Below the pieces are notes generated by a model that was not told where the DNA came from, made no database searches, and saw only the letters and a program-made list of their open reading frames with translations. Positions 3,699-20,114 of a stretch of 64,000 bases of DNA are shown one piece after another (the stretch's first letter is position 1; every line of letters starts with the position of its first letter). The stretch comes from an uncultured Pelagibacteraceae bacterium (lineage in GTDB: Bacteria > Pseudomonadota > Alphaproteobacteria > Pelagibacterales > Pelagibacteraceae), in the NCBI GenBank assembly GCA_902555065.1, contig CACDQQ010000001.1:1-64000 (forward strand), written 5' to 3'. The translations under genes and the position numbers were made by a program.

Positions 3699-5852
3699 TT
3701 AAGCAATTCCTAGATGTTTTTTTCTTTTTTCAACCCAAGTTCTTATCAAATTATCAAAGATTAAACCTATAAAAGCTACACAAATACCCAAAGTTAAACC
3801 AATACCAGCACCATTTTTATCTGATAAAGCTTTTAAAATATATTGCCCTAAATCTTCAGTGCCAATAAATGCCCCTATAATTACCATAAATAATGCAAAC
3901 ACTATTGTTTGATTTATACCAAGCATCATATGAGGGAATGCTAAAGGAAATTCTATTTTTGTTAATCTTTGAAATTTATTTACACCTGACATTGTAGCTG
4001 CATCATGTAAACCGGCCGGAACACTTCTAAGGCCTTCAATTGTGTATCTAGTTGCTGGTATGGTTGCATAAACAATTACTGCAATAAGAACAGAAGTGTC
4101 AGTTATACCAAAAAGCATCATCACAGGAATAAGATAAACAAATGATGGGAATGTTTGGAAAATATCACAGACACCTAACATAAATTTTGCAGAATGTTTA
4201 TTTTGAAAACACAATGTGCCAACTGTAAAACCAATAATACAAGAAACTATTACCCCAAAAGTTGCCATGTAAGCTGTTACCAAAGCTCTATCCCACCAGG
4301 GACTTAAGGCTATGAATAATGTCAAACCACAAACTACTAATGCAGATCTAATTCCACCAATTAAGTAGCCAGCACCAACTACTAAAACTAATGTGGCAAC
4401 AGCTGGCATCCTTAAATACAAAGCCCTCATTGGTTGTAAAACTTCTTGAATTAACCAAGTGTTAAAAGCTTTTATATAAACAAAGAAGGTATCAAAAATC
4501 CAATCAACGCCTTTATTCCAAAAATCAGCAGTTGATATTCCTTTGTTGTGAGGCACTTCAAATAAATAATTGTAACCACCTTTAAAATAAACAGATCCAA
4601 AGTAAGCAAGTAAAATTCCAATTATGAATGTGACACTAAAAAATAATAAATTTTTATTTCTTTGAAAAAAATTTAAGTTGCCAAAATAATCAACTTGTTT
4701 GTTTGCCCACGCTAATGACATTTTATCTAATAAAATTGCAATTAAACTAATACAAAGACCTGCTTCTAACGCTAATCCGATATTAAGCTGATTTAGTGCT
4801 AACAATAAATTAAAACCTAGACCTTTCGCTCCAATGAAGGCTGAAATAACAGCCATAGAAAAGCACACCATGATAACCTGGTTTACGCCAATTAAAATAT
4901 CTCGTCTGGCCGTTGGAATTAGCACTTTAGACATTAGTTGCCAATTATTACAACCACTCATTCTTCCAGCTTCAATCACTTCTGGAGGAATAGCTCTTAA
5001 TCCTAATAAAGTAAGCAATATCATAGGTGGAACAGCAACAACCATAGTTATAATTACTGCAGCATGGTCACCGACTCCAAAAAGAACAAGTGCAGGAACT
5101 AATACTGCATATTGTGGCATTGTTTGCATAACTAAAAGAATTGGATATAAAGCTTTTTCTACACGTTTACTTTTATAAGCTGCAATACCTAAACTTAAAC
5201 CAAATATAAAAGATAGAGGCGCAGCAACTAAAATAAAAGAGAGTGTTTGCATTGATGGTTTCCATTGTCCAAATATAGAAATGTAAACCATGGTTAAACC
5301 AGCAAATAAAGCAAGTCCAATGCCACTTAATTTATAAGCAAGTATTGCAAAACCAGCTGCAACTATAGTCCAAGGTAGACCCGGTAACTCCGCCCAAGGG
5401 TTCGCATCGATCCAGTCCCAACTTGTAAAGGCAACAATTGTTTCAAGTCCACCTAATAGAATTTCTCTAATTAATTCTATTAAAAAGGTCATAAAAGCCG
5501 TTAAATTTCTGCTAATTTGTAAAACTATTGGTCTAGTTTTAAACTCTTGAGTGTCCTCATTCCAAAACTCCATTGGCATCCACTCATTCATTAAGAAAAA
5601 CAAAGAGTCATTTATCCATATTGGTAACCATCCAAGTAATGGTGGAAGCCTCCAGAAAACATCAAAAGCATAATATCTTACTTCTTTACCTAAAAATATG
5701 TAACTACTTTGATTAGGGTCTTTGACGAATTCAGCTTGGCCTCTAATGAATTTATATGTTTCTGGAACATCAATAGCAAAACAAAGAGCAAAGAAAACAA
5801 TTAATAGAAATAACCACTGAAATATTTTTGGATATTTTTTTAGAAATTTCAT
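3699..5852 (-). CDS. Glycine betaine/proline-type ABC permease with two fused permease domains
   Basis: A 717-residue inner-membrane protein with two complete ProW/OpuAB-type permease domains in tandem. Each has its own EAA-type coupling loop, EAGRMSGCNNWQLMSKVLIP in the first half and DAATMSGVNKFQRLTKIEFP in the second, separated by extra membrane segments around residues 400-500. A single chain therefore replaces the usual homodimer. It follows the ProV-like ATPase by 3 bp and precedes gpsA by 6 bp. The family imports quaternary ammonium compounds such as glycine betaine, proline betaine or DMSP; which one applies here is not shown by the sequence. Confidence 0.9.
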   Translation of the reverse strand: MKFLKKYPKIFQWLFLLIVFFALCFAIDVPETYKFIRGQAEFVKDPNQSSYIFLGKEVRYYAFDVFWRLPPLLGWLPIWINDSLFFLMNEWMPMEFWNEDTQEFKTRPIVLQISRNLTAFMTFLIELIREILLGGLETIVAFTSWDWIDANPWAELPGLPWTIVAAGFAILAYKLSGIGLALFAGLTMVYISIFGQWKPSMQTLSFILVAAPLSFIFGLSLGIAAYKSKRVEKALYPILLVMQTMPQYAVLVPALVLFGVGDHAAVIITMVVAVPPMILLTLLGLRAIPPEVIEAGRMSGCNNWQLMSKVLIPTARRDILIGVNQVIMVCFSMAVISAFIGAKGLGFNLLLALNQLNIGLALEAGLCISLIAILLDKMSLAWANKQVDYFGNLNFFQRNKNLLFFSVTFIIGILLAYFGSVYFKGGYNYLFEVPHNKGISTADFWNKGVDWIFDTFFVYIKAFNTWLIQEVLQPMRALYLRMPAVATLVLVVGAGYLIGGIRSALVVCGLTLFIALSPWWDRALVTAYMATFGVIVSCIIGFTVGTLCFQNKHSAKFMLGVCDIFQTFPSFVYLIPVMMLFGITDTSVLIAVIVYATIPATRYTIEGLRSVPAGLHDAATMSGVNKFQRLTKIEFPLAFPHMMLGINQTIVFALFMVIIGAFIGTEDLGQYILKALSDKNGAGIGLTLGICVAFIGLIFDNLIRTWVEKRKKHLGIA

Positions 5853-5855: not shown

Positions 5856-6887
5856 TTATTTCCCATTCTTTCTTCCGCCAAAGACAGTATTTATTATTTT
5901 TGTCGGGTTAATTGACCCCACAGTTTTGTTATTTTCATCTATAACTGCTACAGATTTTTCTTGCGTTAATATTTTTTCAGCAACATTCTCTATAATTTCA
6001 TTTTTTAAAACTTTAACATCTCCTAAATTATTAGATATAGATTTGTCCATTACATCTTTAATTAATAAAACTTTTTCTCTAGGGACTTCTTCTGTGAATT
6101 TTCTTACATATTCCGTAGCTGGGTTTAAAACTATATTTGCAGGTGTATCCAGTTGTTCAATTATTCCGTCTTTCATAATTGCAATTCGATCAGCAAGTTT
6201 TAATGCTTCATCAAAATCATGAGTAATAAACATAATTGTTTTTTGTAATTTTTCTTGAAGTCTTAAGAATTCATCTTGCATTTCTTTTCTAATCAAAGGG
6301 TCTAAAGCAGAAAAAGGTTCATCTAAAAACCATATATCAGGTTCAACTGCAAGAGATCTAGCAATTCCAACTCTCTGTTGTTGTCCGCCTGAAAGTTCTC
6401 TTGGAAAATAATTTTCTCTCCCATCAAGTCCAACTAATTTAACCATCTCCATTGCTTTATTAATACTTTCCTCAGTTTTGATACCTTTGATTTGAAGAGG
6501 AAATGCTATATTTTCTACAACAGTTTTGTGTGGAAGAAGAGCAAAGCTTTGGAAAACCATCCCCATTTTATTTCTTCTAAGCTCTATTAATTCTTTATTA
6601 TTTAAATTTAATAAATCTTGACCCTCAATGAAAATTTTTCCACCCGTTGCATCTGTTAATCTGGATATACACCTTAGTAAAGTTGACTTACCCGATCCAG
6701 ATAAACCCATCACAACAAGCATTTCTCCTTTTTCTACCTCAAAGGAAGCGTTGTTAACACCTACTATACAACCATTTTCTTGAAATGTTTTAGCATCAAC
6801 ATTGCCATTCGAGTCTTGAAGCATTTTTTTAGCATTTTCACCAAAAATTTTATAAACTCCATCGCACTTAATCACTGCTTCAGACAT
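5856..6887 (-). CDS. Glycine betaine/proline-type ABC ATPase (ProV/OpuAA-like)
   Basis: A 343-residue cytoplasmic ATPase for the betaine-type importer. Walker A GLSGSGKST, the Q-loop in MVFQSFALLPH, signature LSGGQQQRV and Walker B IWFLDEPFSALDP are intact. The C-terminus after about residue 280 contains a short CBS-like part (SVAVIDENNKTVGSINPTKI), the region that senses ionic strength in OpuA-type transporters, but it seems too short for two full CBS repeats. The gene starts 64 bp downstream of the membrane protein of unknown function and runs directly into the permease gene. Confidence 0.92.
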   Translation of the reverse strand: MSEAVIKCDGVYKIFGENAKKMLQDSNGNVDAKTFQENGCIVGVNNASFEVEKGEMLVVMGLSGSGKSTLLRCISRLTDATGGKIFIEGQDLLNLNNKELIELRRNKMGMVFQSFALLPHKTVVENIAFPLQIKGIKTEESINKAMEMVKLVGLDGRENYFPRELSGGQQQRVGIARSLAVEPDIWFLDEPFSALDPLIRKEMQDEFLRLQEKLQKTIMFITHDFDEALKLADRIAIMKDGIIEQLDTPANIVLNPATEYVRKFTEEVPREKVLLIKDVMDKSISNNLGDVKVLKNEIIENVAEKILTQEKSVAVIDENNKTVGSINPTKIINTVFGGRKNGK

Positions 6888-6951: not shown

Positions 6952-7503
6952 TCAGAAATTTTTAATAAAATAAACCCTTGTATCTATTCCAGTGCTTAAA
7001 AAACTTAATGCTTCACCGCTTATTGTAATTGTTTCATCCACTCCTACGTTATTTCCACTAACAGTAAAACCTGCATAACATTTTTTTTTTTCAGCATCCC
7101 ATTTTACATATGTATCATCAATCTTGTTTCCATTAATTGTGTAAAGCTCATGAGCTCTAAAATTGAGAAAATTAGCACCCATTATAGCTCTTTGAGGAAT
7201 AAGTTTTGTAGCATTACATACACCTTCATAAAGTTCATCAGATAATTTGTAATGCTCAGTACCATCAAAGGTGACCAGTATACCTGATGGGAGTTTTGAA
7301 ATTAATGCGCTTAGCTTTCTTTCGTTCGCAATTCTTTCTTCTTCTAATTTCATTTTCCTGACTAATTCATCTCCCTCTCCAAATATTTTATTTAAAATTG
7401 CAAAAGATAAAATGATAACTAATGTTAAAAATATAAGTCCAATAAATTGTTTTGCTGTTTCTGGTAGTTTTTTAATTGTTTTAATTGAATTATCGCTAGA
7501 CAT
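6952..7503 (-). CDS. Membrane-anchored protein of unknown function in the betaine-transporter operon
   Basis: I do not recognise this 183-residue protein. A single hydrophobic helix at about residues 20-42 (FIGLIFLTLVIILSFAILNK) is followed by a charged, probably coiled-coil segment (about 47-65, rich in E, K and R) and a beta-rich C-terminal domain with two cysteines (ELYEGVCNAT and KKKCYAGF). The topology suggests an anchored periplasmic domain. Its ATG overlaps the stop of the MORN-protein gene in a TAATG junction, so the pair is probably translationally coupled. Both sit between the binding-protein gene and the ATPase gene of the importer, which suggests but does not prove a link to transport or envelope stress. 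Confidence 0.75.
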   Translation of the reverse strand: MSSDNSIKTIKKLPETAKQFIGLIFLTLVIILSFAILNKIFGEGDELVRKMKLEEERIANERKLSALISKLPSGILVTFDGTEHYKLSDELYEGVCNATKLIPQRAIMGANFLNFRAHELYTINGNKIDDTYVKWDAEKKKCYAGFTVSGNNVGVDETITISGEALSFLSTGIDTRVYFIKNF

Positions 7504-7880
7504 TAATCTTGTAATTTACCATTTTGCCAAATTCCTTTTTTTTGCTCTCCATTTGCCCAAGTAAATGTTCCTTCGCCATTCATAAATCCATTTAACCACT
7601 CACCCTCATATGTAGAGCCATCCGGAAAAGTTAAAGTTCCCATTCCACTCCAAACGCTGTTTTTAAATTCACCTTTATATATATATCCATTAGGCCATGT
7701 TTCTACACCTTGGCCATTTTTTTTTGTATCAACCCATTCACCTTCATAAGTTGTTTTATCTGTATAAACCCATTTGCCATAACCATTTTCGCAATTACCT
7801 TCTTTGCATCCTGTGCTTCTTGCGTTTGCATTTGTAATTAAAAATAAACTAAAAAATATTAAAACAAGGTATTTTATCAT
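7503..7880 (-). CDS. Secreted MORN-repeat protein
   Basis: A 125-residue protein with an N-terminal signal peptide (about 20 residues ending NANA) followed by at least three, possibly four, MORN repeats: units of the form YEGEW..NGQG, YKGEF..SGMG and YEGEW..NGEG at roughly 23-residue spacing. MORN repeats form extended beta-hairpin rods; in bacteria they are often envelope-associated or of unknown role. The gene lies 86 bp after the betaine-type binding-protein gene, past a hairpin, and overlaps the next gene by 1 bp. The repeat assignment is firm; the function is not known. Confidence 0.82.
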   Translation of the reverse strand: MIKYLVLIFFSLFLITNANARSTGCKEGNCENGYGKWVYTDKTTYEGEWVDTKKNGQGVETWPNGYIYKGEFKNSVWSGMGTLTFPDGSTYEGEWLNGFMNGEGTFTWANGEQKKGIWQNGKLQD

Positions 7881-7966: not shown

Positions 7967-8920
7967 TTAATGATCGTGTGTAAATTCTTCCCACACTTTT
8001 TTGTTATCGGCTAACCATTTTTTAGCTGCATCCTCATGAGTCATTTTATCAACGTCAACCAATGCCGCCATTGCACCAATTTGACTTGTAGAAAATGAAA
8101 GTTTTTTGAATACCTTAGCAGCTTTTGGATGGGTTTTTGGAAAATCCTCGTGAACTGCTTTTTTCAAATAACCATCTGGAGAACCACATTTTCCATCACC
8201 GCCATCAGCTGGTCTACAGCCTGCTGTGTATGGAGGAAAATCGATAAATGTAAAACCTGCACCATCAGTAAAATTTGGTGTCCAGTTGAAAATTATAGTT
8301 CCTCTTCCTTCTTTTTCAGCAGCTGCTAACTCTGCCCAAAGTGCATCTGCACCTCCTGCAAATTTAACCCACCATAAATCACCTAAGCCAAGAGCATCAA
8401 TCCTTTGAGGGATTAAGTCACCATGCCAAGTCTGTGGTCCTTCCAACATTCTTCCTTTTCCATCTGGAGAGTCAGGTGTTGTAAAGTTTTTTGCACAGTC
8501 TGGATTTTTTAAAGCTGTCCAATCTGGTAGACCAGGGCATAGACCTTTTTCAACAACCCAGTTTGGGTATCCCATATCCTCAAGTGTTCTTGCTTCATGA
8601 TCACCCCAGTCTAACAAACCACCTTTGTCTAAAGCTGTTGTAAATGACTTACCGAAAGCAGACTCCCACACTTCATGAGATAAAGTCACGTCACCTATTC
8701 TTATAGACTCGTAAACTGCTTGTGAATCAGCATTTACATATTTAACATTATTACCCATACTTTCAAAAATCCCACCAATAACATAAGCCATAACAATTTG
8801 GCTTGACCAGTTGTGAGTTGGGATTACTATAGGTTTTTTACTATCTGCTGCGTTTGAAATTCCTGCAAAACTTACTAATGAAATTACTATAGCTGATAGT
8901 AATGATAGTATTTTCTTCAT
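7967..8920 (-). CDS. Glycine betaine/proline-type ABC substrate-binding protein (ProX/OpuAC-like)
   Basis: A 317-residue periplasmic binding protein, first gene of the operon. The signal peptide covers about residues 1-24 (ending ISNA). The mature part opens with PIVIPTHNWSSQIVMAYVIG, typical of OpuAC-type proteins, and has several tryptophans of the kind that cage quaternary ammonium groups (HEVWESAFGK, GDLWWVKF, IFNWTPNF). Four or more cysteines (GLCPGL, NPDCAK, GCRPAD, GKCGSP) suggest disulphides. A strong AGAGGAGA ribosome site precedes the ATG. The upstream 140 bp is shared with the divergent methylated-amine cluster. Ligand may be glycine betaine, proline betaine, choline or DMSP. Confidence 0.88.
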   Translation of the reverse strand: MKKILSLLSAIVISLVSFAGISNAADSKKPIVIPTHNWSSQIVMAYVIGGIFESMGNNVKYVNADSQAVYESIRIGDVTLSHEVWESAFGKSFTTALDKGGLLDWGDHEARTLEDMGYPNWVVEKGLCPGLPDWTALKNPDCAKNFTTPDSPDGKGRMLEGPQTWHGDLIPQRIDALGLGDLWWVKFAGGADALWAELAAAEKEGRGTIIFNWTPNFTDGAGFTFIDFPPYTAGCRPADGGDGKCGSPDGYLKKAVHEDFPKTHPKAAKVFKKLSFSTSQIGAMAALVDVDKMTHEDAAKKWLADNKKVWEEFTHDH

Positions 8921-9060: not shown

Positions 9061-11400
9061 ATGTTGGAAGAGAATTTAAGAATAAATGAACCTGGTTTAA
9101 ATGTTTTGCCACCTGGAGTTGAAAGATATGTAATTAATGGTGGTGGACTTACAGGAGTTCAGATTTTTCCAGATGATGAAATTGAAATTATTAATAATGA
9201 AGGAAATCAAATTTGCGAAATAGTTGTTTTTAATTCTGATGGAAATTCAGATCCATCGATTTTAAATTTAAAATCTTCTAAATCAGAAAATGATATAATC
9301 AAAATTTTAAATAGAAAAGAAGAAAGTTCAAAAATTGCATTGCGTCAATTAGAAAAAAGAAATCTTAAAATTGCAAAGTCTAAATCTTCAATCCTTTTTG
9401 ATAAAGAAACTCCACCAGGAGAAAAAATTAAAATTAGTTCAAAAGATAAATGTTATTGTATTTTTTCTGCCCCTGGGAATGATATGTTGGTTCATGAACA
9501 AAATCCTCCTACAGAATTAACTTTATTTATTAAAAGAAATAATATTGTTGACTATAAAGAACATAGAATAATTCCAGATCCAATTTTTGATCCTCTAGAT
9601 GAAAAAAATATTGCAAAACAATCTGCGATTTCTTTTGAAGTTAAAGAAGGAGATTATATTCAAATAATTTGTCCAACTGGTAGACAATGTTCAGATTTTG
9701 TTGCTTTTGATACAGCTAAATTGGGTAAAGGTATTGAGAAAGGTTTAGATTGGCAAACAACTAGGACCTTTATGGGAAATACATTTCCAGGACCAGGATT
9801 GTATTCAAAATTTTATGATACAGACCATGAACCTTTGGTAGAAGTAATAAGAGATACTGTTGGTAGACATGATACTTTTAATCTTGCTTGTACATCGAAG
9901 TATTACGAAGATGCTGGTTATTTTGGGCATCCAAATTGCTCAGATAACTTAAGTGGTGCTATGGAAAATTTTGGGGTTAATAGACAAAAGGGATGGCACG
10001 CTATAAATTTATTTTTTAATACATCAGCAGGAGGCTTAAATACCGTACTTTCTGATGAGTCATTTGCTAGACCTGGAGATTATGTAATATTAAGAGCTTT
10101 AAAAGATTTAACCTGCGGAACATCAGCCTGTCCAAGTGATATAGATCCATGTAATTCATGGAACCCTACAGATATTTTTGTTAGAACTTACGAAAAAAAA
10201 AGAGAATTTACAAAATCTTTTGCATTTAGAATGAAACCAGACTCAGAATTAAAACTAACAAAAAATACAGGATTTTATGAAAGAACTTCTAAGTTAACAA
10301 GAAACTTTGTTGATGCTAGAGGATATTGGCTACCCAATGATTACACTAAACACGGAGTAATAAATGAATATACAGCGTGTAGAGAAAAAGCAGTTTTAAT
10401 TGATTTATCTTCTTTAAGAAAATTTGAAATATTAGGTCCAGATGCAGAAGAATTAATGGACTATACTTTAACTAGAAATGTTAAAAAATTGTCAGTTGGA
10501 CAAATTGTTTATTCTTCGATGTGTTATGAAAATGGTTCTATGTTTGATGATGGAACATTGTTAAAAATGAGTGATCATGGATTTAGATGGGTATGTGGTG
10601 ATGAATACGCAGGTGAATGGTTAAAAGAACAAGCAAAAAAGAAAAAATTTAATGTTTTAGTTAAAAACTCTACTGATCAAATAAATAATATTTCTCTACA
10701 AGGACCAAACAGTAGAAAAATTTTAGAAAAGTTTATTTTTACTCCACCAACACAACCTTCTATTTCAGAATTACAATGGTTTAGGTTTACAATCTGTAGA
10801 GTAAAAGAACTTAGTGGAATTCCATTAATGGTTTCTAGAACTGGATACACAGGCGAGTTAGGATACGAAATATGGTGTCACCCTTCAGATGCACCAGCGG
10901 TTTGGGATGTGCTTATGGAAGCTGGCAAAGATGAAGGAATAATACCTGCTGGTTTTGGAGCATTAGATTTATTAAGAATTGAAGCTGGACTAATATTATT
11001 TGGTAATGAATTTGACGGCCAAGTTGACCCTTTTGAAGCTGGTGTTGGATTTACGGTTCCTTTAAAAACAAAAACAGCAGATTTCATTGGTAAAGAAGCA
11101 TTAATAAAGAGAAAAGAAAATCCGCAAAAGAAATTAGTTGGATTAGAACTTGTAGGCAAAGAAAAAGCTAATCACGGTGATTGCGTTCACATTGGAAGAT
11201 CCCAAGTTGGCGTAGTTACAAGCGGATGTCTATCTCCTACTTTGAATAAAAATATTGCTTTGTGCAGAATTGATGTGGGTCATTCAGAAATAGGTATGAA
11301 CGTTGAAGTCGGTAAAATTGATGGACATCAAAAAAGAATACCTGCTAAAATTGTTGGTTTCCCGCATTACGATCCTCAAAAAACACGTGTAAAATCTTAA
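9061..11400 (+). CDS. DUF1989 - GcvT fusion protein (folate-dependent aminomethyltransferase-like)
   Basis: A 779-residue cytoplasmic protein with an unusual order. Residues 1-180 form a beta-rich region that may be a degenerate DUF1989 copy. Residues about 186-378 are a full DUF1989 domain with QCSDFVAFD, GHPNCSDNL and ACPSDIDPCNSWNPTD, whose cysteines (about 293, 352, 357, 364) match the conserved metal-site type of that family. Residues about 400-779 are a complete GcvT/aminomethyltransferase fold (SRTGYTGELGYEIW, LDLLRIEAGLILFGNEF, FIGKEAL). DUF1989 includes the carboxyguanidine deiminase subunits (former urea carboxylase-associated proteins), while GcvT folds pass one-carbon units to tetrahydrofolate. 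First gene of the methylated-amine cluster. Substrate unknown; demethylation of an N-methyl compound is my inference. Confidence 0.83.
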   Translation: MLEENLRINEPGLNVLPPGVERYVINGGGLTGVQIFPDDEIEIINNEGNQICEIVVFNSDGNSDPSILNLKSSKSENDIIKILNRKEESSKIALRQLEKRNLKIAKSKSSILFDKETPPGEKIKISSKDKCYCIFSAPGNDMLVHEQNPPTELTLFIKRNNIVDYKEHRIIPDPIFDPLDEKNIAKQSAISFEVKEGDYIQIICPTGRQCSDFVAFDTAKLGKGIEKGLDWQTTRTFMGNTFPGPGLYSKFYDTDHEPLVEVIRDTVGRHDTFNLACTSKYYEDAGYFGHPNCSDNLSGAMENFGVNRQKGWHAINLFFNTSAGGLNTVLSDESFARPGDYVILRALKDLTCGTSACPSDIDPCNSWNPTDIFVRTYEKKREFTKSFAFRMKPDSELKLTKNTGFYERTSKLTRNFVDARGYWLPNDYTKHGVINEYTACREKAVLIDLSSLRKFEILGPDAEELMDYTLTRNVKKLSVGQIVYSSMCYENGSMFDDGTLLKMSDHGFRWVCGDEYAGEWLKEQAKKKKFNVLVKNSTDQINNISLQGPNSRKILEKFIFTPPTQPSISELQWFRFTICRVKELSGIPLMVSRTGYTGELGYEIWCHPSDAPAVWDVLMEAGKDEGIIPAGFGALDLLRIEAGLILFGNEFDGQVDPFEAGVGFTVPLKTKTADFIGKEALIKRKENPQKKLVGLELVGKEKANHGDCVHIGRSQVGVVTSGCLSPTLNKNIALCRIDVGHSEIGMNVEVGKIDGHQKRIPAKIVGFPHYDPQKTRVKS

Positions 11401-11750
11401 TGTCAAAATCATCAAAGGATTTACTGGAATTTTGGGAAGATCAAATGAAACTGTCCCATACATCCAGTAATTACTTTTTCAGAAAGTCTCCTTCACATTA
11501 TCACATGATGTTGATTGTGATGAATTCCTATAAATTAAATGAAAACCTATCTGTCGAAGAACTTAAGACTAGACTTTTCAAAACCTCTAGACCCAAATCT
11601 GCACTCATGATCAAAGAAGCTTGTGATAAAGAATTTTTTTACCTCAAGAAAACCGGAAATGACCATAGAAAAAAGTACGTTTTACCCACACAGAATTTTG
11701 TTAATGAATTTAACGAATATTTGAAAACTCTCAAAAATTTGAGTTTTTAA
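11400..11750 (+). CDS. Small winged-helix-like protein (possible MarR-type regulator)
   Basis: A 116-residue protein whose ATG overlaps the preceding stop (TAATG), so it is translationally coupled to the fusion gene. The middle (about 48-105) reads like a winged helix: a helical segment LSVEELKTRLFKTSRPKS, a second helix with KEACDKEFFYLKK, then a basic turn NDHRKKYVLP resembling the wing of MarR-type regulators. The N-terminal 45 residues would be the dimerisation helix. Codon use is a little richer in C-ending codons than its neighbours. A local regulator of the methylated-amine cluster is plausible; the family call is tentative. A weak AT-rich hairpin covers its last codons (11724-11747). 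Confidence 0.6.
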   Translation: MSKSSKDLLEFWEDQMKLSHTSSNYFFRKSPSHYHMMLIVMNSYKLNENLSVEELKTRLFKTSRPKSALMIKEACDKEFFYLKKTGNDHRKKYVLPTQNFVNEFNEYLKTLKNLSF

Positions 11751-11839: not shown

Positions 11840-13168
11840 ATGTCGTTACCGACAAAAGCAAAAGTTGTAATAATTGGTGGAGGAATTCACGGGTTAAGTA
11901 CTGCTTGGAAACTTTCCGAAAAATATAAAAATCCAAACGATGTAGTTGTCCTAGAAAAAAAAGACACTGCTGCAGGTGCAAGTGGAATTGCATGTGGAGT
12001 TGTTAGAAATAATTATTTTCAACCAGCAATGAGAGAATTAATGGCTCATTCAGTTAGTGTTTGGGAAAGTGATCCAGAGGCATTTAAATATAATGCTGTT
12101 GGCTATATGCAAATTTCTCCAGAAGTAATGCATAAAGATGTTGCAAGTATTTATGAACAACAAAAAGCTATTGGATATGAATCAGAATTTATAGAAGGTG
12201 AAAAAGATTGCATGAAATATATGCAAGGAATTTTTAGTGATTGGCAAGCAAAAGGTATTACATCAGTCTTGCATGAAAAAAAAGGTGGATATGCATTTAA
12301 TAAGGACTCAATTAAAGCACTAGAGAAAAAAGCAAATTCAAACGGTGTAAACGTTCATAAAGGAGTAAAGGTTACAGGTTTTAAAAGAGGGAGCAACAGC
12401 AATGCAATTACTGGCGTGGTTACAGATAAAGGTACAATTGATTGTGATCAGGTAGTTATTGGAGCAGGACCATGGGTAAGAGATTTTTGGAATATGTTGG
12501 AGTTACCAAAAACTACTAACATAAAAGATGCTAAAAATGGAAAAATGCATGAAGTTGAAATGTGGAAGTACTGGTTTTTACAAGAAGGTGTATTGGGTGT
12601 AGATGCAGATTATTTAAAAACTAATGAAGGTAAACCGCCTCCAGTAATTCATGTTGATACAGATGCACCACTTTATTCTGACAAAGATGGTAAAATAATT
12701 ACAGAAGACTTATGGGGTATATATTATAAACCTGATATTGAAGGATTGGGAGTTCAAGGTGGAACATCACCTTACATTGTTCAAAAACATTTTGATGAAG
12801 TTAATGTTGACCCATATGGAATTGACTCTCCTGAATATCAAACTACTGATAAATTTTCTGATATGTGGACTTCAGCACTTGCACATATTCAGAAACGTTT
12901 TGTTGGTAAATCTCATTTGTATAGAAAGGGACCATCAGGAGGATTGGGTTGTTTAACTCCAGATTCATTCCCGATATTCGATAGATTTTTTGAAAATGTT
13001 TACATGATTGCAGATGCAAATCATGGTTATAAAATGATAGGTGTTGGGCACCTTGTTGCACAAGAAATTTTAGGTCAAGAAAGTGAATTACTAAAACCGT
13101 TCAGGTTCGATAGATATGAGAAAGGCAAACTTCATCCGACATCGAACAGTCCGTTTCCTTGGAGTTAA
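11840..13168 (+). CDS. FAD-dependent amine oxidase/dehydrogenase, sarcosine oxidase beta subunit-like
   Basis: A 442-residue DAO-superfamily flavoprotein. The dinucleotide-binding motif VVIIGGGIHGLSTAWKL sits at residues 9-25, a VVLEK acidic end of the second strand follows, and GPSGGLGCLTPDSFPI plus DANHGYKMIGVGHL near the C-terminus are typical of sarcosine oxidase beta/N-methylglutamate dehydrogenase-type subunits. It would oxidise a secondary amine, releasing formaldehyde or methylene-tetrahydrofolate with a GcvT partner. It lies directly upstream of gmaS and mgsABC, which points to N-methylglutamate as substrate. No alpha, gamma or delta subunit genes of a heterotetrameric enzyme are nearby; dimethylglycine or sarcosine remain alternatives. 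Confidence 0.82.
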   Translation: MSLPTKAKVVIIGGGIHGLSTAWKLSEKYKNPNDVVVLEKKDTAAGASGIACGVVRNNYFQPAMRELMAHSVSVWESDPEAFKYNAVGYMQISPEVMHKDVASIYEQQKAIGYESEFIEGEKDCMKYMQGIFSDWQAKGITSVLHEKKGGYAFNKDSIKALEKKANSNGVNVHKGVKVTGFKRGSNSNAITGVVTDKGTIDCDQVVIGAGPWVRDFWNMLELPKTTNIKDAKNGKMHEVEMWKYWFLQEGVLGVDADYLKTNEGKPPPVIHVDTDAPLYSDKDGKIITEDLWGIYYKPDIEGLGVQGGTSPYIVQKHFDEVNVDPYGIDSPEYQTTDKFSDMWTSALAHIQKRFVGKSHLYRKGPSGGLGCLTPDSFPIFDRFFENVYMIADANHGYKMIGVGHLVAQEILGQESELLKPFRFDRYEKGKLHPTSNSPFPWS

Positions 13169-13193
13169 TTTATCTAAGTAGACAAACGTTTTT

Positions 13194-13230
13194 TTTTCAG
13201 TTACCTTTTTGATCTGAAAATTCAAAGGGG
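13194..13230 (+). promoter_or_regulatory. Candidate H-type pseudoknot/riboswitch-like leader of gmaS
   Basis: A 7-bp stem TTTTCAG (13194-13200) with CTGAAAA (13214-13220) encloses a 13-nt loop. Loop bases CCTTT (13204-13208) are complementary to AAAGG (13224-13228), the start of the ribosome site that leads into the gmaS ATG at 13236. Folding as a pseudoknot would hide the ribosome site, the logic used by small translational riboswitches. Connecting loops are 3, 5 and 3 nt; the last is tight for a 7-bp stem. It does not match SAM-II, SAM-V, preQ1 or glutamine riboswitch cores that I know. Confidence 0.4.
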
Positions 13231-13235
13231 GAAGA

Positions 13236-14705
13236 ATGACGGATCTTGAAAAACACGTAAACCAACCAGGTAGAGCTAAACTCGTCAAAAAGGTTAGAGA
13301 AAAAATAAACGAATTAGGAATTACTTATATCTATTATCAATTTATTTCAGTAACTGGAAGAGTTGTTGGAAAAGGAATACCAGCAGACCACTGGGAAAGA
13401 ACTGCAGAAAAAGGTTTTCAATTAGTTTATGGAGCAACAGCAAATTTATTTTTAGATCGTCATAATAATTATATTGGATATGGTCCAGAAGCTATGGAAT
13501 TGGTAGGAATACCTGATCCAGAAACTTTTGTTCAATTGCCTTGGGATAAGAGAGTTGGAAGAGTTTTTGTTACTTGTTTTAGAAATAGAGAAGAAAGAAA
13601 AAATCCAGGTGGTCATTTAACAAGTGACTGCAGAGGTAATCTTAGAATTTTCATGAATGAGTTCAAAAAGAAACATGGATTAGAATTAAGAGTTGGAACA
13701 GAGCCTGAAATGATGTGGTTAACAAAAAATCCTGACGGAACTCCAACTGGACAAGGTTTCTCAAAACCTTTCTGTTATCATATTGATCAATTTGAATCAT
13801 TAAGACCTGTGTTTATGAAGGTTATTGAATACGCAAAAGCGATGGGTCTTGATATGATCCAAGGTGACCATGAAGATGCTCCTGGTCAATTAGAGCTTAA
13901 CTGGACATTTGATAATGTTTTAAGAAATGCTGATAGATTATCTACGTATAGACAAATTTGTGCTCAAGTAGCAAGAGAACATAATCTTATAGCTTGCTTT
14001 ATGACTAAACCATTTATGGGAGTTTCAGCAAGTGGATGTCACACCAACATGTCTTTGTGGAAAGGTGGAAAAGTATCAGTAAACAAATTGGGTAACAAAA
14101 AACTTCCAGGAGTAGAAGAAGTCTTTAGCTATGTATCCGGTGGAACTAATACTTTCATGCCAGATACTAAGGATATGCAATTGCCTGGAAAGATTGGATT
14201 ACAATCAATTGCAGGGATAATGAAACACTTACCAGCTTTAACAGCAATTGGTTCTTCGACAGTGAACTCATATAGAAGATTATGGGATCAAGGTTTTTGG
14301 GCACCAGTATATGCTGACTGGGGTTATCAAAATAGAACATGTGGTCTAAGAGTATCTGCTCCAGGTAGATTTGAGTACAGATCAGTTGACTCTATGCATA
14401 ATCCATATTTATTAGGTGCAGCATTACTTAAAGCTTGTGATGAAGGAATATCTAAAAAAATGAAACCAGCCAAACCTGAGTCTAGAAATATATATGAAGC
14501 TCAAAAAGCTGGTAAAGATGTTAAAAAACTTCCACTAAGTTTAGGTGAAGCTTTAGATAGATTGGCGGAAGATGAGGTAATAAAATCATCAATGCCAGAT
14601 GAAATGTATAAAGTATTTAATTGGTACAAACGAGATGAGTGGGAAAAATTCTTGGGTGCAACAACACAATGGGATCTTGATACTTATCTGGATTGTTTAC
14701 CATAA
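13236..14705 (+). CDS. gmaS: Gamma-glutamylmethylamide synthetase-like (glutamine synthetase family)
   Basis: A 489-residue glutamine-synthetase-fold ligase. Family features include the glutamate/metal motif VGTEPEMMW, the GDHEDAPGQLELNW segment, the SASGCHTNMSLW ATP/metal segment and GRFEYRSVDSMHNPYLLGA near the C-terminus. In this genomic setting, just ahead of mgsABC, the reaction is most likely ATP-dependent joining of glutamate and methylamine to gamma-glutamylmethylamide rather than glutamine synthesis. A strong AAAGGGGGAAG ribosome site precedes the ATG and a candidate regulatory fold overlaps it. It starts 67 bp after the flavoprotein stop. A plain type III glutamine synthetase is the alternative. 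Confidence 0.87.
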   Translation: MTDLEKHVNQPGRAKLVKKVREKINELGITYIYYQFISVTGRVVGKGIPADHWERTAEKGFQLVYGATANLFLDRHNNYIGYGPEAMELVGIPDPETFVQLPWDKRVGRVFVTCFRNREERKNPGGHLTSDCRGNLRIFMNEFKKKHGLELRVGTEPEMMWLTKNPDGTPTGQGFSKPFCYHIDQFESLRPVFMKVIEYAKAMGLDMIQGDHEDAPGQLELNWTFDNVLRNADRLSTYRQICAQVAREHNLIACFMTKPFMGVSASGCHTNMSLWKGGKVSVNKLGNKKLPGVEEVFSYVSGGTNTFMPDTKDMQLPGKIGLQSIAGIMKHLPALTAIGSSTVNSYRRLWDQGFWAPVYADWGYQNRTCGLRVSAPGRFEYRSVDSMHNPYLLGAALLKACDEGISKKMKPAKPESRNIYEAQKAGKDVKKLPLSLGEALDRLAEDEVIKSSMPDEMYKVFNWYKRDEWEKFLGATTQWDLDTYLDCLP

Positions 14706-14722
14706 TTTAATAAGGAAATTAT

Positions 14723-15664
14723 ATGTGCGGGATTGCAGGATTAATTCATAGAGGAAATACTTCAAACGTTGGTTTTGAACTTCAAGGTATGCTTCAAGCA
14801 TTAAAGCATAGAGGAGAAGATTCAACTGGATACGCTCTATACGGAAAAACTGACGGTCAAAATTTCATCATGCGATTTAAGGTTGGTGAAAATGTTGCAG
14901 AGGGAAGTTCTTCAGTAAAAGAAGATGTATCAGTTTATGACGAAAGAAAAAAAATTGTTGATTCTTATCTTTCTGAGCTAGGCGCTAAAGTAATAAAAGA
15001 AGATAGAATTCTTCCTTATTCATTACGATATGAAATTCAGTATGACAAAGATTTAATGGAATTTTCTCAAAAAATAGAAAGTGTTGAAGGTGTAGAAATA
15101 TTATCTATGGGAAAATCTCTAGAAGTAATTAAAGATCTAGGAAACGCTGAAGTTGTTTGTAACAGATATAATTTAGATAAAGTTGTCGGGACACATGCAA
15201 TTGGTCATGCTAGGATGGCAACAGAGTCGGGAGTGGATATTAAATCTGCTCACCCATTTTGGGGTTATCCTTTTAGCGATGTGTCAGTCGTTCATAATGG
15301 ACAATTAACAAACTATTGGAACAATAGAAGAGTATTGGAAAACAAGGGCATGAGATTTATGTCAGAATGTGACTCTGAATTAATCGCTGTATATCTTGCA
15401 GAAAAAATGAGAAATGGAGCTACATTAGAAGAGGGAATGAAAGAGTCTCTCGTCGGTTTAGATGGGGTATTTACTTATTTTGTTGCTACAAAAGATAGCT
15501 TAGGAATGGCGAAAGATACAATGGCTGCAAAACCACTAGTATTGTATGAGTCAGATGATTTAGTTGCAATGGGGTCAGAGGAAATTGCAATAAGATCAAT
15601 ATTACCACAAGAAATCGAAACTTATGATCCTTTTGATGGAGAAGTTAAAGTATGGCAAATTTAA
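14723..15664 (+). CDS. mgsA: N-methylglutamate synthase subunit A (class-II glutamine amidotransferase)
   Basis: A 313-residue amidotransferase domain equivalent to the N-terminal domain of glutamate synthase. The protein begins MCGIAGLIHRG, so Cys2 becomes the N-terminal nucleophile after methionine removal; HARMATESG and VVHNGQLTNYW complete the Ntn-hydrolase site. In the N-methylglutamate pathway this subunit handles gamma-glutamylmethylamide and delivers methylamine. It starts 17 bp after gmaS with an AAGGA ribosome site and its end overlaps mgsB by 13 bp, so the subunits should be made together. Confidence 0.9.
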   Translation: MCGIAGLIHRGNTSNVGFELQGMLQALKHRGEDSTGYALYGKTDGQNFIMRFKVGENVAEGSSSVKEDVSVYDERKKIVDSYLSELGAKVIKEDRILPYSLRYEIQYDKDLMEFSQKIESVEGVEILSMGKSLEVIKDLGNAEVVCNRYNLDKVVGTHAIGHARMATESGVDIKSAHPFWGYPFSDVSVVHNGQLTNYWNNRRVLENKGMRFMSECDSELIAVYLAEKMRNGATLEEGMKESLVGLDGVFTYFVATKDSLGMAKDTMAAKPLVLYESDDLVAMGSEEIAIRSILPQEIETYDPFDGEVKVWQI

Positions 15665-16506
15665 AAACATCAGAAAAAAAAAGTAAAGCTCAATCAATGG
15701 GACTTCATACAGAAGTCTTAACTGGAAAAACACAACAAAAATTTTTTAATCCAGATGAGGCAGAGAATTTTTATTACTTTGGGACATATGATGTAGATTT
15801 TAATAAAAGAACTGAGATTGACGTTAAGAACATGGATTGTCGTGAAGCAAATAAAAAAATTGATGAATTAATGAAAGATGGATACGGAACTATTGTAATA
15901 AAGAACCCACAGGGAAAACATAGCTTGGGAGTTGGAATTCTCAATAAATTAAATTTAATATTTGAAGGTAGTTTGGGTTACTTTGGGTGTGGATCAATGG
16001 ATGGTCCTATTGTTAGAATTAATGGAAGAGTGGGATGGTCATGTGCAGAAAATATGATGGCGGGAAAAGTAGTAATTGAAAAAAATGCAGGGTCTTGTTT
16101 TGGTGCGGCAATTAGAGGTGGAGATCTGATATGCAAAGGAAGCGTAGGTGCCAGAACAGGAATTGATCAAAAAGGTGGGACAATAATTATTGGCGGAGAT
16201 GCTGGTGCTTTTACAGGTTTTATGATGCAGAGAGGGCGAATTATTATTCTTGGAGATGTTGGAATAAATTTAGGAGATTCTATGTATGATGGGACAATTT
16301 TTGTAGGTGGAAAAATTGGATCATTTGGTAGTGATGCTGTCGAAGCTAAATTAACTGATTCAGATCAAGATTGGCTTAAAAGAAAATTAAAGGTTGCGGA
16401 GATCGGAGAAAACTTCGATGTTTCTAAGATGACCAAAGTTGTAGCAGGAAAAAAACTTTGGAATTACGATGCTCTTGAACCTACAGAAAAAAAAGGAGCA
16501 ATTTAA
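15652..16506 (+). CDS. mgsB: N-methylglutamate synthase subunit B (GXGXG domain)
   Basis: A 284-residue protein matching the C-terminal GXGXG beta-helix of the large subunit of glutamate synthase. Repeated turns such as GSLGYFGCGSMDG, GRVGWSCAENMMAG, GGTIIIGGDAGAFTG and GGKIGSFGSDAVEA build the right-handed helix; it is structural rather than catalytic. The start overlaps the end of mgsA by 13 bp and the stop abuts mgsC. A stand-alone GXGXG protein between an amidotransferase and an FMN domain is the diagnostic order of the mgsABC operon. Confidence 0.9.
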   Translation: MANLKTSEKKSKAQSMGLHTEVLTGKTQQKFFNPDEAENFYYFGTYDVDFNKRTEIDVKNMDCREANKKIDELMKDGYGTIVIKNPQGKHSLGVGILNKLNLIFEGSLGYFGCGSMDGPIVRINGRVGWSCAENMMAGKVVIEKNAGSCFGAAIRGGDLICKGSVGARTGIDQKGGTIIIGGDAGAFTGFMMQRGRIIILGDVGINLGDSMYDGTIFVGGKIGSFGSDAVEAKLTDSDQDWLKRKLKVAEIGENFDVSKMTKVVAGKKLWNYDALEPTEKKGAI

Positions 16507-17898
16507 ATGGCAAAGAAAAAAAATGGTAATGGAAAATCAAACGGACATTCTAATGGTAATGGAATAGCTTCAAGAAACAAAAGTTTGTTGGGACACAACG
16601 CTATTTTTACCCCAGAAGTTATGGACGACATTCATATCAAAGCCGAATTAGGAAGATACAGAATGAGAGGAATGGCTTTGATGAAAAAGATACCTACTTT
16701 TGATGATCTAGTTTTCTTGCCAGGTACATTAACAAGATTTGTTATTGAAGGTTACAGAGAAAAATGTGAGACCAAAACTATTATTGGTCCAAGATGTGAA
16801 AATCCAATAGAGCTTGATATTCCAGTTTACATTACGGGAATGAGTTTTGGAGCTTTATCTTATGAAGCAAAGACTGCATTAGCTAGAGGTGCTACAATGG
16901 CTGGTAGCGCAACATGTTCTGGTGAAGGTGGAATGATACCAGATGAGAGAAGATATTCAGAAAAATGGTTTTATCAGTGCATACAATCAAGATACGGTTT
17001 TAACCCACACCATGCACAATTAGCTGATGGAATTGAGGTATTTATTGGACAAGGACAAAAAGTTGGAATGGGTGGTCATTTGATGGGTCAAAAAGTTACT
17101 GACCAAGTGGCAGAAATGAGATCGCTACCTGCAGGTATTGATCAAAGATCTCCAGCAAGACATCCTGATTGGCTGGGTCCAGATGATTTAGCTTTAAAAG
17201 TTCAAGAGCTTAGAGAATTAACAAAAAATAAAGTGCCAATTCAATTAAAACTTGGAGCAGCTAAAGTGTATGATGATGTAAGGATGGCAGCGAAATGCGA
17301 TCCAGATTCAATTTATCTTGATGGAATGGAGGGTTCAACAGGTGCTGGGCCACACATTGCAGCGGCAAACACAGGTATCCCAGGAATTGCTGGAATTAGA
17401 GAAGCAAGAAGAGCTTTGGATGATGTAGGTAAAACTGGAAAAGTAACTTTAATTTATGCCGGTGGTGTTAGAGATGGAGCAGATATGGCTAAAGCTTTAG
17501 CACTTGGTGCAGACGCAATTGCAATCGGAACAGGCGCAATGGTGGCTTTAAATTGCAATAAAGAAATACCAGAATCTAACTTTGAAAAAGAAATGGGTGT
17601 TCCCGCAGGTCATTGCTACCACTGTCACACGGGTAGATGTCCGGTAGGAGTTGCTACTCAAGATCCTAAATTAAGGAAAAGATTAAATCCTGATGATGCA
17701 GCATTAAGAGTGTATAATTACTTGCATGCGATGACATTGGAGGCTCAATTGTTGGCTAGAGCATGTGGAAAAACAAATATTCACTCACTAGAACCAGAAG
17801 ATATGGCTGCATTAACAATGGAGGCTTCTGCTTTAGCTAAAGTGCCTCTTGCAGGAACAAATCATACAGTAGGAGTTAAAGATTTCCATAAAATCTAA
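16507..17898 (+). CDS. mgsC: N-methylglutamate synthase subunit C (FMN and Fe-S domain)
   Basis: A 463-residue homologue of the FMN-binding synthase domain of glutamate synthase. It has the GMSFGALSYEAK segment, QLKLGAAKVYDDVRMAAKCDPDSIYLDG barrel strands (core QLKLGAAK), the AGGVRDGADMAKALALGADA phosphate-binding region, and the CYHCHTGRCPVGVATQ cysteine motif for the 3Fe-4S cluster. It would combine 2-oxoglutarate with methylamine from subunit A to give N-methylglutamate. The first 25 residues are a low-complexity Lys/Asn/Gly tail. The gene abuts mgsB with no gap and has an AGGAG ribosome site inside the mgsB end. Confidence 0.92.
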   Translation: MAKKKNGNGKSNGHSNGNGIASRNKSLLGHNAIFTPEVMDDIHIKAELGRYRMRGMALMKKIPTFDDLVFLPGTLTRFVIEGYREKCETKTIIGPRCENPIELDIPVYITGMSFGALSYEAKTALARGATMAGSATCSGEGGMIPDERRYSEKWFYQCIQSRYGFNPHHAQLADGIEVFIGQGQKVGMGGHLMGQKVTDQVAEMRSLPAGIDQRSPARHPDWLGPDDLALKVQELRELTKNKVPIQLKLGAAKVYDDVRMAAKCDPDSIYLDGMEGSTGAGPHIAAANTGIPGIAGIREARRALDDVGKTGKVTLIYAGGVRDGADMAKALALGADAIAIGTGAMVALNCNKEIPESNFEKEMGVPAGHCYHCHTGRCPVGVATQDPKLRKRLNPDDAALRVYNYLHAMTLEAQLLARACGKTNIHSLEPEDMAALTMEASALAKVPLAGTNHTVGVKDFHKI

Positions 17899-17906
17899 TA
17901 GCAAAT

Positions 17907-18317
17907 ATGCCAAAGAAAAAAGGTAAGAAAAAAGTCAAATCAAAAGAGATCAAAGGTCAATTAGGTAAGAAAAAAGAGACTGCTAGAGAAAAAATGATTG
18001 GCCAAACAATTGGCTATCGATATGACGTTAATCTTTTGCCTGACTATAGTCGACTCACTCCATTTTTAAAAAAATATATAGAAGCTATGGGTTGGGATGA
18101 TCTTAATTGGTTAGAAGATGTTCATATGGGATATGAAGAAAATAGACCTGCTGTATTCGATAGAAATGCTAACGGTTGGGTAACGATACCAAGTAAAATA
18201 AAATTACCTAATAATCAGCAGGATAGAGATATGATAGCTAGAGAATTATTGGTAAAGTTTCAAATGTCCCCGAATCATCCTCTGGTTGACCTTAAAAAAG
18301 CATATTTAAAATTCTAA
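17907..18317 (+). CDS. Unknown protein downstream of mgsC
   Basis: I do not recognise this 136-residue protein. The first 30 residues are extremely lysine-rich (MPKKKGKKKVKSKEIKGQ), then comes a folded-looking part with RYDVNLLPDYSRL, AMGWDDLNWLEDVHMGYEENRP and RDMIARELLVKFQ. There is no membrane segment. It follows mgsC by 8 bp and precedes the transporter gene by 116 bp, so it belongs to the N-methylglutamate synthase transcription unit. It may be an accessory or stabilising subunit of the synthase; the basic tail resembles the low-complexity tail of MgsC. The function is an open guess. Confidence 0.75.
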   Translation: MPKKKGKKKVKSKEIKGQLGKKKETAREKMIGQTIGYRYDVNLLPDYSRLTPFLKKYIEAMGWDDLNWLEDVHMGYEENRPAVFDRNANGWVTIPSKIKLPNNQQDRDMIARELLVKFQMSPNHPLVDLKKAYLKF

Positions 18318-18433: not shown

Positions 18434-19834
18434 ATGACTGATCAATTAGGTGCTCTCACAACCTTATTTACAGAATTTTACTATTGGGTAACTGTGGTTC
18501 TTATGTTTTTGATCCACGTGGGTTTCTGTATGTATGAAGTTGGGGCATCTCGTTACAAACATCACCAACACACTCTTATGAAAAATACAATGCTGATACC
18601 ACTGGTAACAGTCACATGGTTTTTCTTTGGTTGGTGGATATACTGGGCATTTCCAACAGGACCCGGATTAGCTCCCTCGATTATGACCGAAAGTACTGGT
18701 CTAGTTCTTGGAGGTGGATTTGGTGGAAATGATCTTGCTAATCCTACAAATGCATTGATGGCCGTAAATCTTAATGATCATATAATGGGTGTCTTCTGGG
18801 CAGCCTTTTTATTATTTTCATGGACTGCAGCTTCAATTGTATCTGGAGCGGTTATTGAAAGGATAACTACTTTTGCATTTGGAATACTTGCAATTGCAAT
18901 TGGATCTGTTTTCTGGACAATAGATGCTTCATGGGGATGGCATTTTGATGGATGGATGTTAAAAATATTAGGATATCACGATGCTTATGCTTCCGGAGTA
19001 ATTCACGCAATTGCCGGAGGTTTTGCCTTAGGTGTTCTAATTGTTTTAGGACCAAGAATTGGAAAATTTTCATCTAGCGGAGAACCAAGAAACATTGGAC
19101 CAAGAAATCCTTGGTTAGTGACTGTTGGATTATTCTTAATCTATACAGGTTTTTGGGGCTTTTACGCTGCATGTAATGTTCCGATTTATGATCTTGGACC
19201 TGAATATGGTATGGAAGGTGTAACTTTCTTTACTGCAACGAACATCTACCTAACTCCCACCACACTTAGTGGAATAACGATGAACTTTTTAATGTCGTTA
19301 TCTGGAGGGTTGTTAGCAGGGTATGTGGTCTCGAAGGGAGATCCTTTCTGGACTTATTCATCAGGACTTGCGGGAATAATATGTGCATCTGCAGGTAATG
19401 ATTTATATCATCCAATACAATCAATGATAATCGGTATGATCGGAGTAGTTATAGCTTACAAAATGCATTACTGGGTCGAGAAAAAATATAAAATCGACGA
19501 TGCAGTTGGAGCAGTAGCTGTTCATGGTTATGCTGGATTTGTTGGTCTTGTAATATGTGGTTTCGTTTTAAATGGTTATCCTTCATCTGGATACAGTGTT
19601 GGAGCAATGTGGGACGGAACTAATTATGCAGCAATTAATCCACTAGGAATGTTTATCGGAGCAATAATAATGTTTTTTGTTTTAGGTATGCTTCCTGGAT
19701 ATATAATTGCAAAAGTTCTTCACGGAATGGGTAAATTAAGAATACCAAGAGAAGTAGAACTTGCAGGACTTGACTATACAATTATGGAAGAGGCTAAAGA
19801 AGACGAAAAAGCTGTAGTCTCGGCCAGTAGATAA
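18434..19834 (+). CDS. amtB: Ammonium/methylammonium transporter, Amt family
   Basis: A 466-residue inner-membrane channel with about 11 helices. The two pore histidines are in ASGVIHAIAGG and GAVAVHGYAG, and SGAVIERI marks the conserved fifth-helix region. Sequence is divergent from enteric AmtB, for example at the segment preceding the ER pair. It is preceded by an AGGAGAG ribosome site and by the methylated-amine genes, so it may carry methylammonium as well as ammonium. The 116 bp upstream hold no clear promoter or riboswitch that I can name. No glnK gene sits next to it. Confidence 0.92.
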   Translation: MTDQLGALTTLFTEFYYWVTVVLMFLIHVGFCMYEVGASRYKHHQHTLMKNTMLIPLVTVTWFFFGWWIYWAFPTGPGLAPSIMTESTGLVLGGGFGGNDLANPTNALMAVNLNDHIMGVFWAAFLLFSWTAASIVSGAVIERITTFAFGILAIAIGSVFWTIDASWGWHFDGWMLKILGYHDAYASGVIHAIAGGFALGVLIVLGPRIGKFSSSGEPRNIGPRNPWLVTVGLFLIYTGFWGFYAACNVPIYDLGPEYGMEGVTFFTATNIYLTPTTLSGITMNFLMSLSGGLLAGYVVSKGDPFWTYSSGLAGIICASAGNDLYHPIQSMIIGMIGVVIAYKMHYWVEKKYKIDDAVGAVAVHGYAGFVGLVICGFVLNGYPSSGYSVGAMWDGTNYAAINPLGMFIGAIIMFFVLGMLPGYIIAKVLHGMGKLRIPREVELAGLDYTIMEEAKEDEKAVVSASR

Positions 19835-19847
19835 AGGAGGTATGTAA

Positions 19848-20069
19848 ATGGCAACAGTATCAAATTGGATAGATCATTTAAGTGCCTCTGAGGTACAAGG
19901 ATCTGTCTATCCAGGTGTTGGTTCGGAAGGAGTGCTAGTTATAATAGCAATTCTTATTTGGGTTGGCTGGCATGTTATTTCATCTAAACAAGAAGATGGT
20001 AAAATGAATGCAATTGTCAGAAAAAAACCAAGTGCTAACGACTGGAAAAGCAATATAACAGACGGTTAA
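19848..20069 (+). CDS. Small membrane protein downstream of amtB
   Basis: A 73-residue protein with one hydrophobic segment (GVLVIIAILIWVGWHVI, about residues 28-44), an N-terminal polar part and a basic C-terminal tail. An AAAGGAGGT ribosome site 7 bp upstream is one of the strongest in the window, which argues for real and abundant translation. It starts 13 bp after amtB and ends just before a terminator, so it is the last gene of that unit. It may be a small Amt-associated subunit; no family is recognised. Confidence 0.75.
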   Translation: MATVSNWIDHLSASEVQGSVYPGVGSEGVLVIIAILIWVGWHVISSKQEDGKMNAIVRKKPSANDWKSNITDG

Positions 20070-20077
20070 AACTTTTA

Positions 20078-20112
20078 AGAGGGCGCATGAAATACTGTGC
20101 CCTCTTTTTTTT
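20078..20112 (+). terminator. Intrinsic terminator after the amtB unit
   Basis: AGAGGGC (20078-20084) pairs with GCCCTCT (20099-20105), extended by three more pairs (one G-U) to a 10-bp stem with an 8-nt loop, followed by a run of seven or more T. It lies 9 bp after the small membrane-protein stop and ends the methylamine/amtB transcription unit. Confidence 0.9.
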
Positions 20113-20114
20113 TA

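Follow-up and report, generated by a model that had tools for sequence, protein, structure and literature searches.

The closest described relative of the protein considered here is the trimethylamine N-oxide (TMAO) demethylase Tdm, which was described in Methylocella (Zhu et al. 2014, 2016, as cited in PMC12560246). In the M. silvestris enzyme, Zn is bound by C263, C279 and C343, and H276, D198 and D346 lie near the metals; a third domain, DUF1989-like and lacking the Zn cysteines, has already been reported for it (PMC12560246). TMAO induces tdm, tmoX and gmaS in the SAR11 strain HTCC1062, which can grow on it as the only source of nitrogen (PMC8918994). SAR11 bacteria have been reported without dmmDABC, the known dimethylamine enzyme (PMC5520151, PMC8918994). 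We analyzed a stretch of 64,000 nucleotides from an uncultured Pelagibacteraceae bacterium (assembly GCA_902555065.1, contig CACDQQ010000001.1, positions 1 to 64,000 of the forward strand; hereafter the window), in which an earlier note, made from the sequence alone, had read a DUF1989-GcvT fusion at 9061-11400 and proposed a new type of demethylase. Our analysis indicates that this frame is very probably the tdm gene of a SAR11 bacterium, whose product would demethylate TMAO as its homologs do.

A three-domain protein of the Tdm family

The frame at 9061-11400 on the forward strand starts with ATG, encodes 779 residues and contains no internal stops. Pfam identified DUF1989 at residues 183-350 (136.7 bits, E 8.1e-40), GCV_T at residues 406-664 (226.2 bits, E 5.2e-67) and GCV_T_C at residues 690-771 (66.2 bits, E 2.4e-18), each above its gathering score. 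Together with the N-terminal region, the protein is divided into a diverged DUF1989-like domain (residues 1-185; 9061-9615, forward strand), a DUF1989 domain that carries the Zn site (residues 183-395; 9607-10245, forward strand) and a GcvT domain (approximately residues 394-779; 10240-11397, forward strand). The earlier note had given this DUF1989-GcvT architecture and its coordinates correctly, and the ACPSDIDPCN motif it named is present in the product, where SACPSDIDPC begins at residue 355.

The NCBIfam equivalog model of TMAO demethylase, NF053776, scored 1104 bits over residues 16-778, where 1100 are required. The nearest solved chains were 9q59, 9q5a and 9q5l, all named trimethylamine N-oxide demethylase, with E values of 4.6e-247 (9q59) and 4.3e-246. 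A full-length alignment with 9q59 showed identity at 361 of 758 positions (47.6%), distributed as 45/162 in the N-terminal part (27.8%), 107/218 in DUF1989 and 209/378 in GcvT. The window protein has in common with these chains, with NF053776 and with the M. silvestris enzyme the three-domain order, the length and the published Zn/Fe-site residues, and it also shares with the latter a DUF1989-like domain at the N-terminus that is weakly conserved and has no Zn cysteines (PMC12560246). A structure paper for 9q59 was not found in the open-access literature, so one may be in print.

The N-terminal region had been taken in the earlier note for a possible decayed second DUF1989, and this was borne out. 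Using hhalign, we compared a 40-homolog alignment of residues 1-185 with a 40-row alignment of the protein's own DUF1989 and obtained a probability of 96.1% (E 3.1e-9), while the same alignment gave 0.04% against one unrelated alignment used as a control. In this match, an Ala pairs with the Zn ligand C357, and no invariant or near-invariant cysteine was found in residues 1-185 among the 40 sequences. The predicted model of this region had a mean predicted local distance difference test (pLDDT) score of 82.5. The three best Foldseek rows for the model were the DUF1989 structures 3oru and 3siy (E 2.0e-4 and 2.5e-4), and VIA-align 2 gave Z-scores of 11.1 with 3siy (root mean square deviation 3.0, 132 residues), 11.0 with 3oru and 9.6 with 3di4, compared with 7.8 for the best entry outside DUF1989. 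By profile comparison and predicted structure, the diverged N-terminal DUF1989 of Tdm is real, as well as published.

The DUF1989-GcvT fusion is the already described enzyme Tdm and is not new. What holds from the earlier interpretation is that one chain combines a metal-site DUF1989 with GcvT and, by family, would N-demethylate a compound, freeing a one-carbon unit; the supposed novelty of the enzyme does not hold, and a new demethylase was rejected because the NF053776 equivalog cut-off was passed and solved Tdm chains match. The note had also linked the chain to guanidino compounds through carboxyguanidine deiminase. DUF1989 homology is shared with proteins of the UAAP1/UAAP2 type (urea amidolyase associated proteins), which we take to be the subunits of that deiminase. 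Their models scored far under the cut-offs (UAAP1, TIGR03425, 32.2 vs 205.95 bits; UAAP2, TIGR03424, 70.8 vs 284.7), and carboxyguanidine deiminase was therefore rejected. Additionally, no urea amidolyase domain was reported among the other 19 genes that were scanned with Pfam. A new bifunctional enzyme that attacks the C-N centre of a guanidino or N-methyl compound and hands the carbon to folate would fit with DUF1989 and GcvT being both present and intact, but we consider it exceedingly improbable, as the enzyme is already described as Tdm, the UAAP1/UAAP2 scores are far under cut-off and tetrahydrofolate (THF) is unnecessary for TMAO demethylation (PMC12560246).

We sampled 385 genomes of the class Alphaproteobacteria; 34 of them contained a family match with an E value of 1e-150 or lower, and in 29 it exceeded the NF053776 cut-off. 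Because these matches are near full length, the fusion is no product of chance or assembly, and misassembly was rejected as an explanation. Among the window genome and 120 relatives (121 genomes), 25 pass the cut-off. In a scan of named genomes, the best 80 of 496 confirmed matches were all titled Pelagibacteraceae, and the first two were 100% identical to the window Tdm. The GC content of the window is 31.7%.

Metal site, residue 359 and the substrate

We transferred the published metal site to the window protein through 9q59. Eight of the nine residue labels of PMC12560246 fall on the right letter in 9q59 at a single offset of +22; the exception, A344, is Pro in 9q59, so this chain may come from a species other than M. 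silvestris. The Zn cysteines of the window protein are C277, C293 and C357, and H290, D212 and D360 lie near the metals. Among 109 loci (L009-L117), which are mostly near relatives with many near-copies, D212, C277, H290 and C293 were present in 108 and C357 and D360 in all 109; L112 is a gapped row in which the frame is broken, and L007 and L008 were left out of this residue reading. The same picture was obtained with 44 more diverse homologs, 29 from the class-wide sample and 15 from the window's order, in which C277, C293, C357, H290 and D212 were found in 44/44 and D360 in 42/44. The loss of DUF1989 metal residues, for which the earlier note had set a check, is therefore not seen, as the published residues are kept.

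Alignments of both chains revealed that 9q5a differs from 9q59 at two Asp-to-Ala changes. The first position corresponds to D212 in the window, which is still Asp. The second (chain residue 367) corresponds to S359 (10135-10137), the residue preceding D360, so that the window protein has Ser where 9q59 has Asp. Among the 29 class-level homologs, position 359 held Asp 24 times and Cys 5 times; the 15 homologs from the window's order had Ser (9) or Cys (6). Asp at this position is apparently no published defining feature of Tdm, and it is not constant in the family.

Upstream of tdm and divergent from it lies tmoX (7967-8920, reverse strand), which encodes a TMAO-binding periplasmic protein. Its best solved match was 4xz6 (E 5.4e-83), the TmoX of R. 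pomeroyi (PMC8918994); among the pocket residues given in that paper, W38, W85, F89 and E114 have the same numbers in the window protein, and W165, F211 and W213 come one place later. On the same strand are a betaine/proline/choline-type ATP-binding cassette (ABC) transporter ATPase that resembles TmoV or TmoW (5856-6887; TIGR01186, 345.1 bits vs 326.6), and the permease of the same transporter (3699-5852; 717 residues, two matched stretches, BPD_transp_1 E 3e-41). The presence of TmoX and GmaS in the window confirmed the TMAO/methylamine context of tdm. Two small genes stand between tmoX and the ATPase gene (6952-7880); one of them, at 7503-7880, contains repeats that by eye resemble MORN repeats.

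The described locus nearest in organism is that of HTCC1062, in which the aminomethyltransferase SAR11_1303 was reported in 2011 beside SAR11_1302 ("GBT" transporter type) and SAR11_1304, its substrate then being unknown (PMC3160333). The organism group is the same and the described neighbours are alike: SAR11_1302 is of the opuAC/TmoX type, SAR11_1304 of the sarcosine oxidase type (PMC3160333), and SAR11_1305 is glnT (PMC5069961), likewise similar to the window neighbours. This likeness is drawn from the published description of the locus. From its position, SAR11_1303 is presumably the tdm of HTCC1062.

The architecture, family membership, conserved residues, gene context and host group of the window tdm were all observed directly in this analysis. 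Several points weigh against the identification. The margin over the NF053776 cut-off is thin, and 10 more of the 121 genomes have a full-length match under that cut-off by our own reading. The C-terminal half also barely passes the gcvT equivalog TIGR00528 (238.8 vs 235.85, residues 401-766 only); the product remained under the cut-off of PRK00389 (277.9 vs 300). Ser359 occupies the second of the two positions changed in 9q5a, and if the Asp at this position is catalytic, the SAR11 enzyme differs there; this lowered our confidence slightly. Additionally, our literature search found no published measurement on this SAR11 protein. A Tdm-like enzyme with another N-oxide or N-methyl compound as its natural substrate would agree with the near-cut-off score, the identity of 47.6% to the solved chain with 27.8% in the N-terminal part, and Ser359, whose counterpart is Asp in 9q59 and Ala in 9q5a. 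We nevertheless consider another substrate improbable, since the TMAO transporter genes are directly upstream, the published metal-site residues are kept and the tdm of SAR11 is up-regulated by TMAO (PMC8918994).

For the substrate, products, metals and the inactivity of separate domains, we draw on papers on homologs, and we expect the same catalysis from the window protein by analogy with them. TMAO would be imported by the upstream ABC transporter, composed of TmoX, the ATPase and the permease, and Tdm would then strip one methyl group off it to give dimethylamine and formaldehyde. The reaction would be catalysed by the Zn/Fe site in the second DUF1989 domain, with its three Cys, His and Asp, while the first DUF1989-like domain, which has no metal site, is probably structural. 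The GcvT domain would be required for an active enzyme and may pass part of the formaldehyde to THF.

The GcvT half and folate

The GcvT (T-protein) and DmdA proteins are homologous to the C-terminal half of the window Tdm; unlike GcvT or DmdA as such, this half sits behind two DUF1989-type domains. In the alignment with GcvT, from which the E. coli numbering of the columns was inferred, the window Tdm is changed at the positions of R223 and Y101, both of which are Leu (L635 and L501). The R223 position was Leu in 44/44 diverse homologs, and the Y101 position was Phe in 32, Leu in 11 and Tyr in 1; at the latter the window has Leu and not the Phe of the published Tdm. Both D497 and E603 were present in all 44 homologs, D497 being aligned with what we take to be the catalytic Asp of GcvT. 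The invariant residues over the 44 sequences numbered 75/379 in GcvT, 34/218 in DUF1989 and 3/166 in the N-terminal part.

The losses at the two positions are not confined to Tdm. The window's own DmdA (49768-50931; NF009133, 532 bits vs 410) also has no Arg and no Tyr there, and the same is true of two open frames of the same genome of approximately 1000 residues that contain GcvT (L004 and L006, which resemble SoxA in size only). Both DmdA and SoxA are THF-dependent proteins. Since DmdA, L004 and L006 share the losses, these substitutions do not decide whether Tdm uses folate. A further GcvT-like gene is located at 44636-45859. Eight NCBIfam models were listed for it, none of which reached its cut-off, and it precedes genes similar to those for lactate dehydrogenase and acetolactate synthase.

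The published view is that THF can no longer be coordinated once E. coli R223 and Y101 have been replaced, and that folate use by Tdm is probably vestigial (PMC12560246). The L618 of that paper maps to F632 in the window, while our own R223 column is L635, and Arg is at neither. The same paper reports that added THF slightly lowers the release of formaldehyde by Tdm, and that activity persists after denaturation of the more heat-labile unit (PMC12560246). Within the reading of the window protein as a TMAO demethylase, its GcvT domain could be a working, folate-dependent trap for formaldehyde and no relic, and we regard the chances of this as evenly balanced. The conservation of D497 and E603, the largest share of invariant residues being held by GcvT, the equivalent losses in DmdA, L004 and L006 and the slight fall in formaldehyde release on addition of THF argue for a trap; the Leu at the R223 position in every homolog, the rarity of Tyr at the Y101 position, the vestigial role proposed in print and the activity kept after denaturation of the heat-labile unit argue against it.

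Downstream genes and the dimethylamine step

Downstream of tdm, all on the forward strand, the first gene is orf116 (11400-11750); the final base of the tdm frame is also the first of its start codon. This gene gave 107 tblastn hits among the fetched loci, and no Pfam match above cut-off was found for it; in one genome without tdm (L189), it adjoins the FAD (flavin adenine dinucleotide) oxidase gene. This is followed by a cassette at 11840-18317, which begins 440 bases after tdm and is composed of an FAD oxidase, a glutamine synthetase (GS)-like ligase, three MgsABC-like genes and orf136. The FAD oxidase (11840-13168) belongs to the DAO family (PF01266 E 2.5e-35) and resembles SAR11_1304, the "monomeric sarcosine oxidase" of HTCC1062, by position and family only. 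The three genes at 14723-17898 resemble MgsA, MgsB and MgsC by Pfam (class II amidotransferase, GXGXG and Glu_synthase) and form a paralogous set, as the other MgsC-like set, found in many genomes, is 50-54% identical to the cassette MgsC. The conserved gene orf136 (17907-18317) showed 65-90% identity in 20 other rows; it had no Pfam or NCBIfam match, and a Foldseek search with its model (pLDDT 73.6) gave nothing at an E value of 0.001 or lower.

After the cassette come an ammonium transporter gene, amt (18434-19834; PF00909 E 4.1e-51), and gmaS, encoding gamma-glutamylmethylamide synthetase (20297-21622; 7cql E 8.7e-170), in which 13/13 RhGmaS residues looked up agree with 7cql. Between amt and gmaS (19834-20297) there is no second mgsABC set, while one stands directly after amt in genome G012 (L210). 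A single mgsC was found in the window's genome, which is 82% complete.

The GS-like ligase (13236-14705; PF00120) belongs to a clade distinct from GmaS. In a 27-row alignment, all 13 RhGmaS site residues named in PMC7948447 were present in the 23 GS-like rows. These rows formed a clade apart from the four gmaS rows with a support of 100/100, the window ligase was identical to the window GmaS at 130 of 428 positions, and it remained under the GmaS cut-off of TIGR03105 (294.5 vs 469.6). Many of these site residues are general to glutamine synthetases, so the evidence supports a ligase and not a given amine. The Km of RhGmaS for dimethylamine is 16.07 x 10^3, in a unit that we take as micromolar (PMC7948447), and this high value indicates that an ordinary GmaS is a poor dimethylamine enzyme.

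To describe the occurrence of the cassette, we used the same 385 genomes. The FAD oxidase was present in 42, of which 25 belong to the 34 tdm carriers and 17 to the 351 other genomes, in a count that leaves out G148, G176, G268 and G367 (37-42% identity). PF11927, which we take as the marker family for DmmA, was matched in 46 genomes at E 1e-30, and its overlap with the FAD oxidase was a single genome. Among the tdm carriers, the oxidase was found in 1 of 5 with PF11927 and in 24 of 29 without it, which leaves five carriers with neither. The E 1e-30 cut drops weak PF11927 matches (5.6e-14 to 2.8e-16) in the tdm carriers G150, G379 and G457, two of which hold the oxidase; when these are counted, the values become 3 of 8 and 22 of 26. 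Fisher tests, in which shared ancestry is ignored, gave 7e-21 for the oxidase with tdm, 0.043 for the oxidase against PF11927 and 0.012 for the latter within tdm carriers, the last two being modest.

The gene order was read by eye in 40 fetched loci. Of the 17 genomes that hold the oxidase and lack tdm, 15 were covered, and of the 25 that hold both genes, 16; the remaining loci came from three other relatives with both genes and from six tdm carriers in which the oxidase is absent. The full six-gene order was seen in 9 of the 15 oxidase-only loci and in 9 of the 19 with tdm and the oxidase, three more of which are cut by contig ends (L200, L203 and L205). The cassette is therefore not tied to tdm alone. 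Its order is conserved across Alphaproteobacteria with and without tdm. A GS-like gene was present in 26 of the 34 tdm carriers; in 15 of them, from six families, its distance to tdm was at most 20 kb.

The cassette may perform the missing dimethylamine step in SAR11 and in other tdm carriers without dmmDABC, a possibility that we put forward tentatively and rate as rather less than even. The ligase and the MgsABC-like proteins would load dimethylamine onto glutamate, and the FAD oxidase would then demethylate the N-methylated glutamate. A simple division of labour is opposed by the window genome and by G327 (99% complete), in both of which gmaS is present and the only mgsC is that of the cassette. 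We found no published description of the cassette in the open-access literature, so one may be in print.

In itself, the finding adds a further SAR11 genome to those with this already known marine enzyme. The printed case against folate in Tdm rests on two substitutions that the DmdA of the same genome has too. The conserved cassette behind tdm may provide named genes for the missing dimethylamine step of SAR11 bacteria such as HTCC1062, which grows on the nitrogen of TMAO (PMC8918994).

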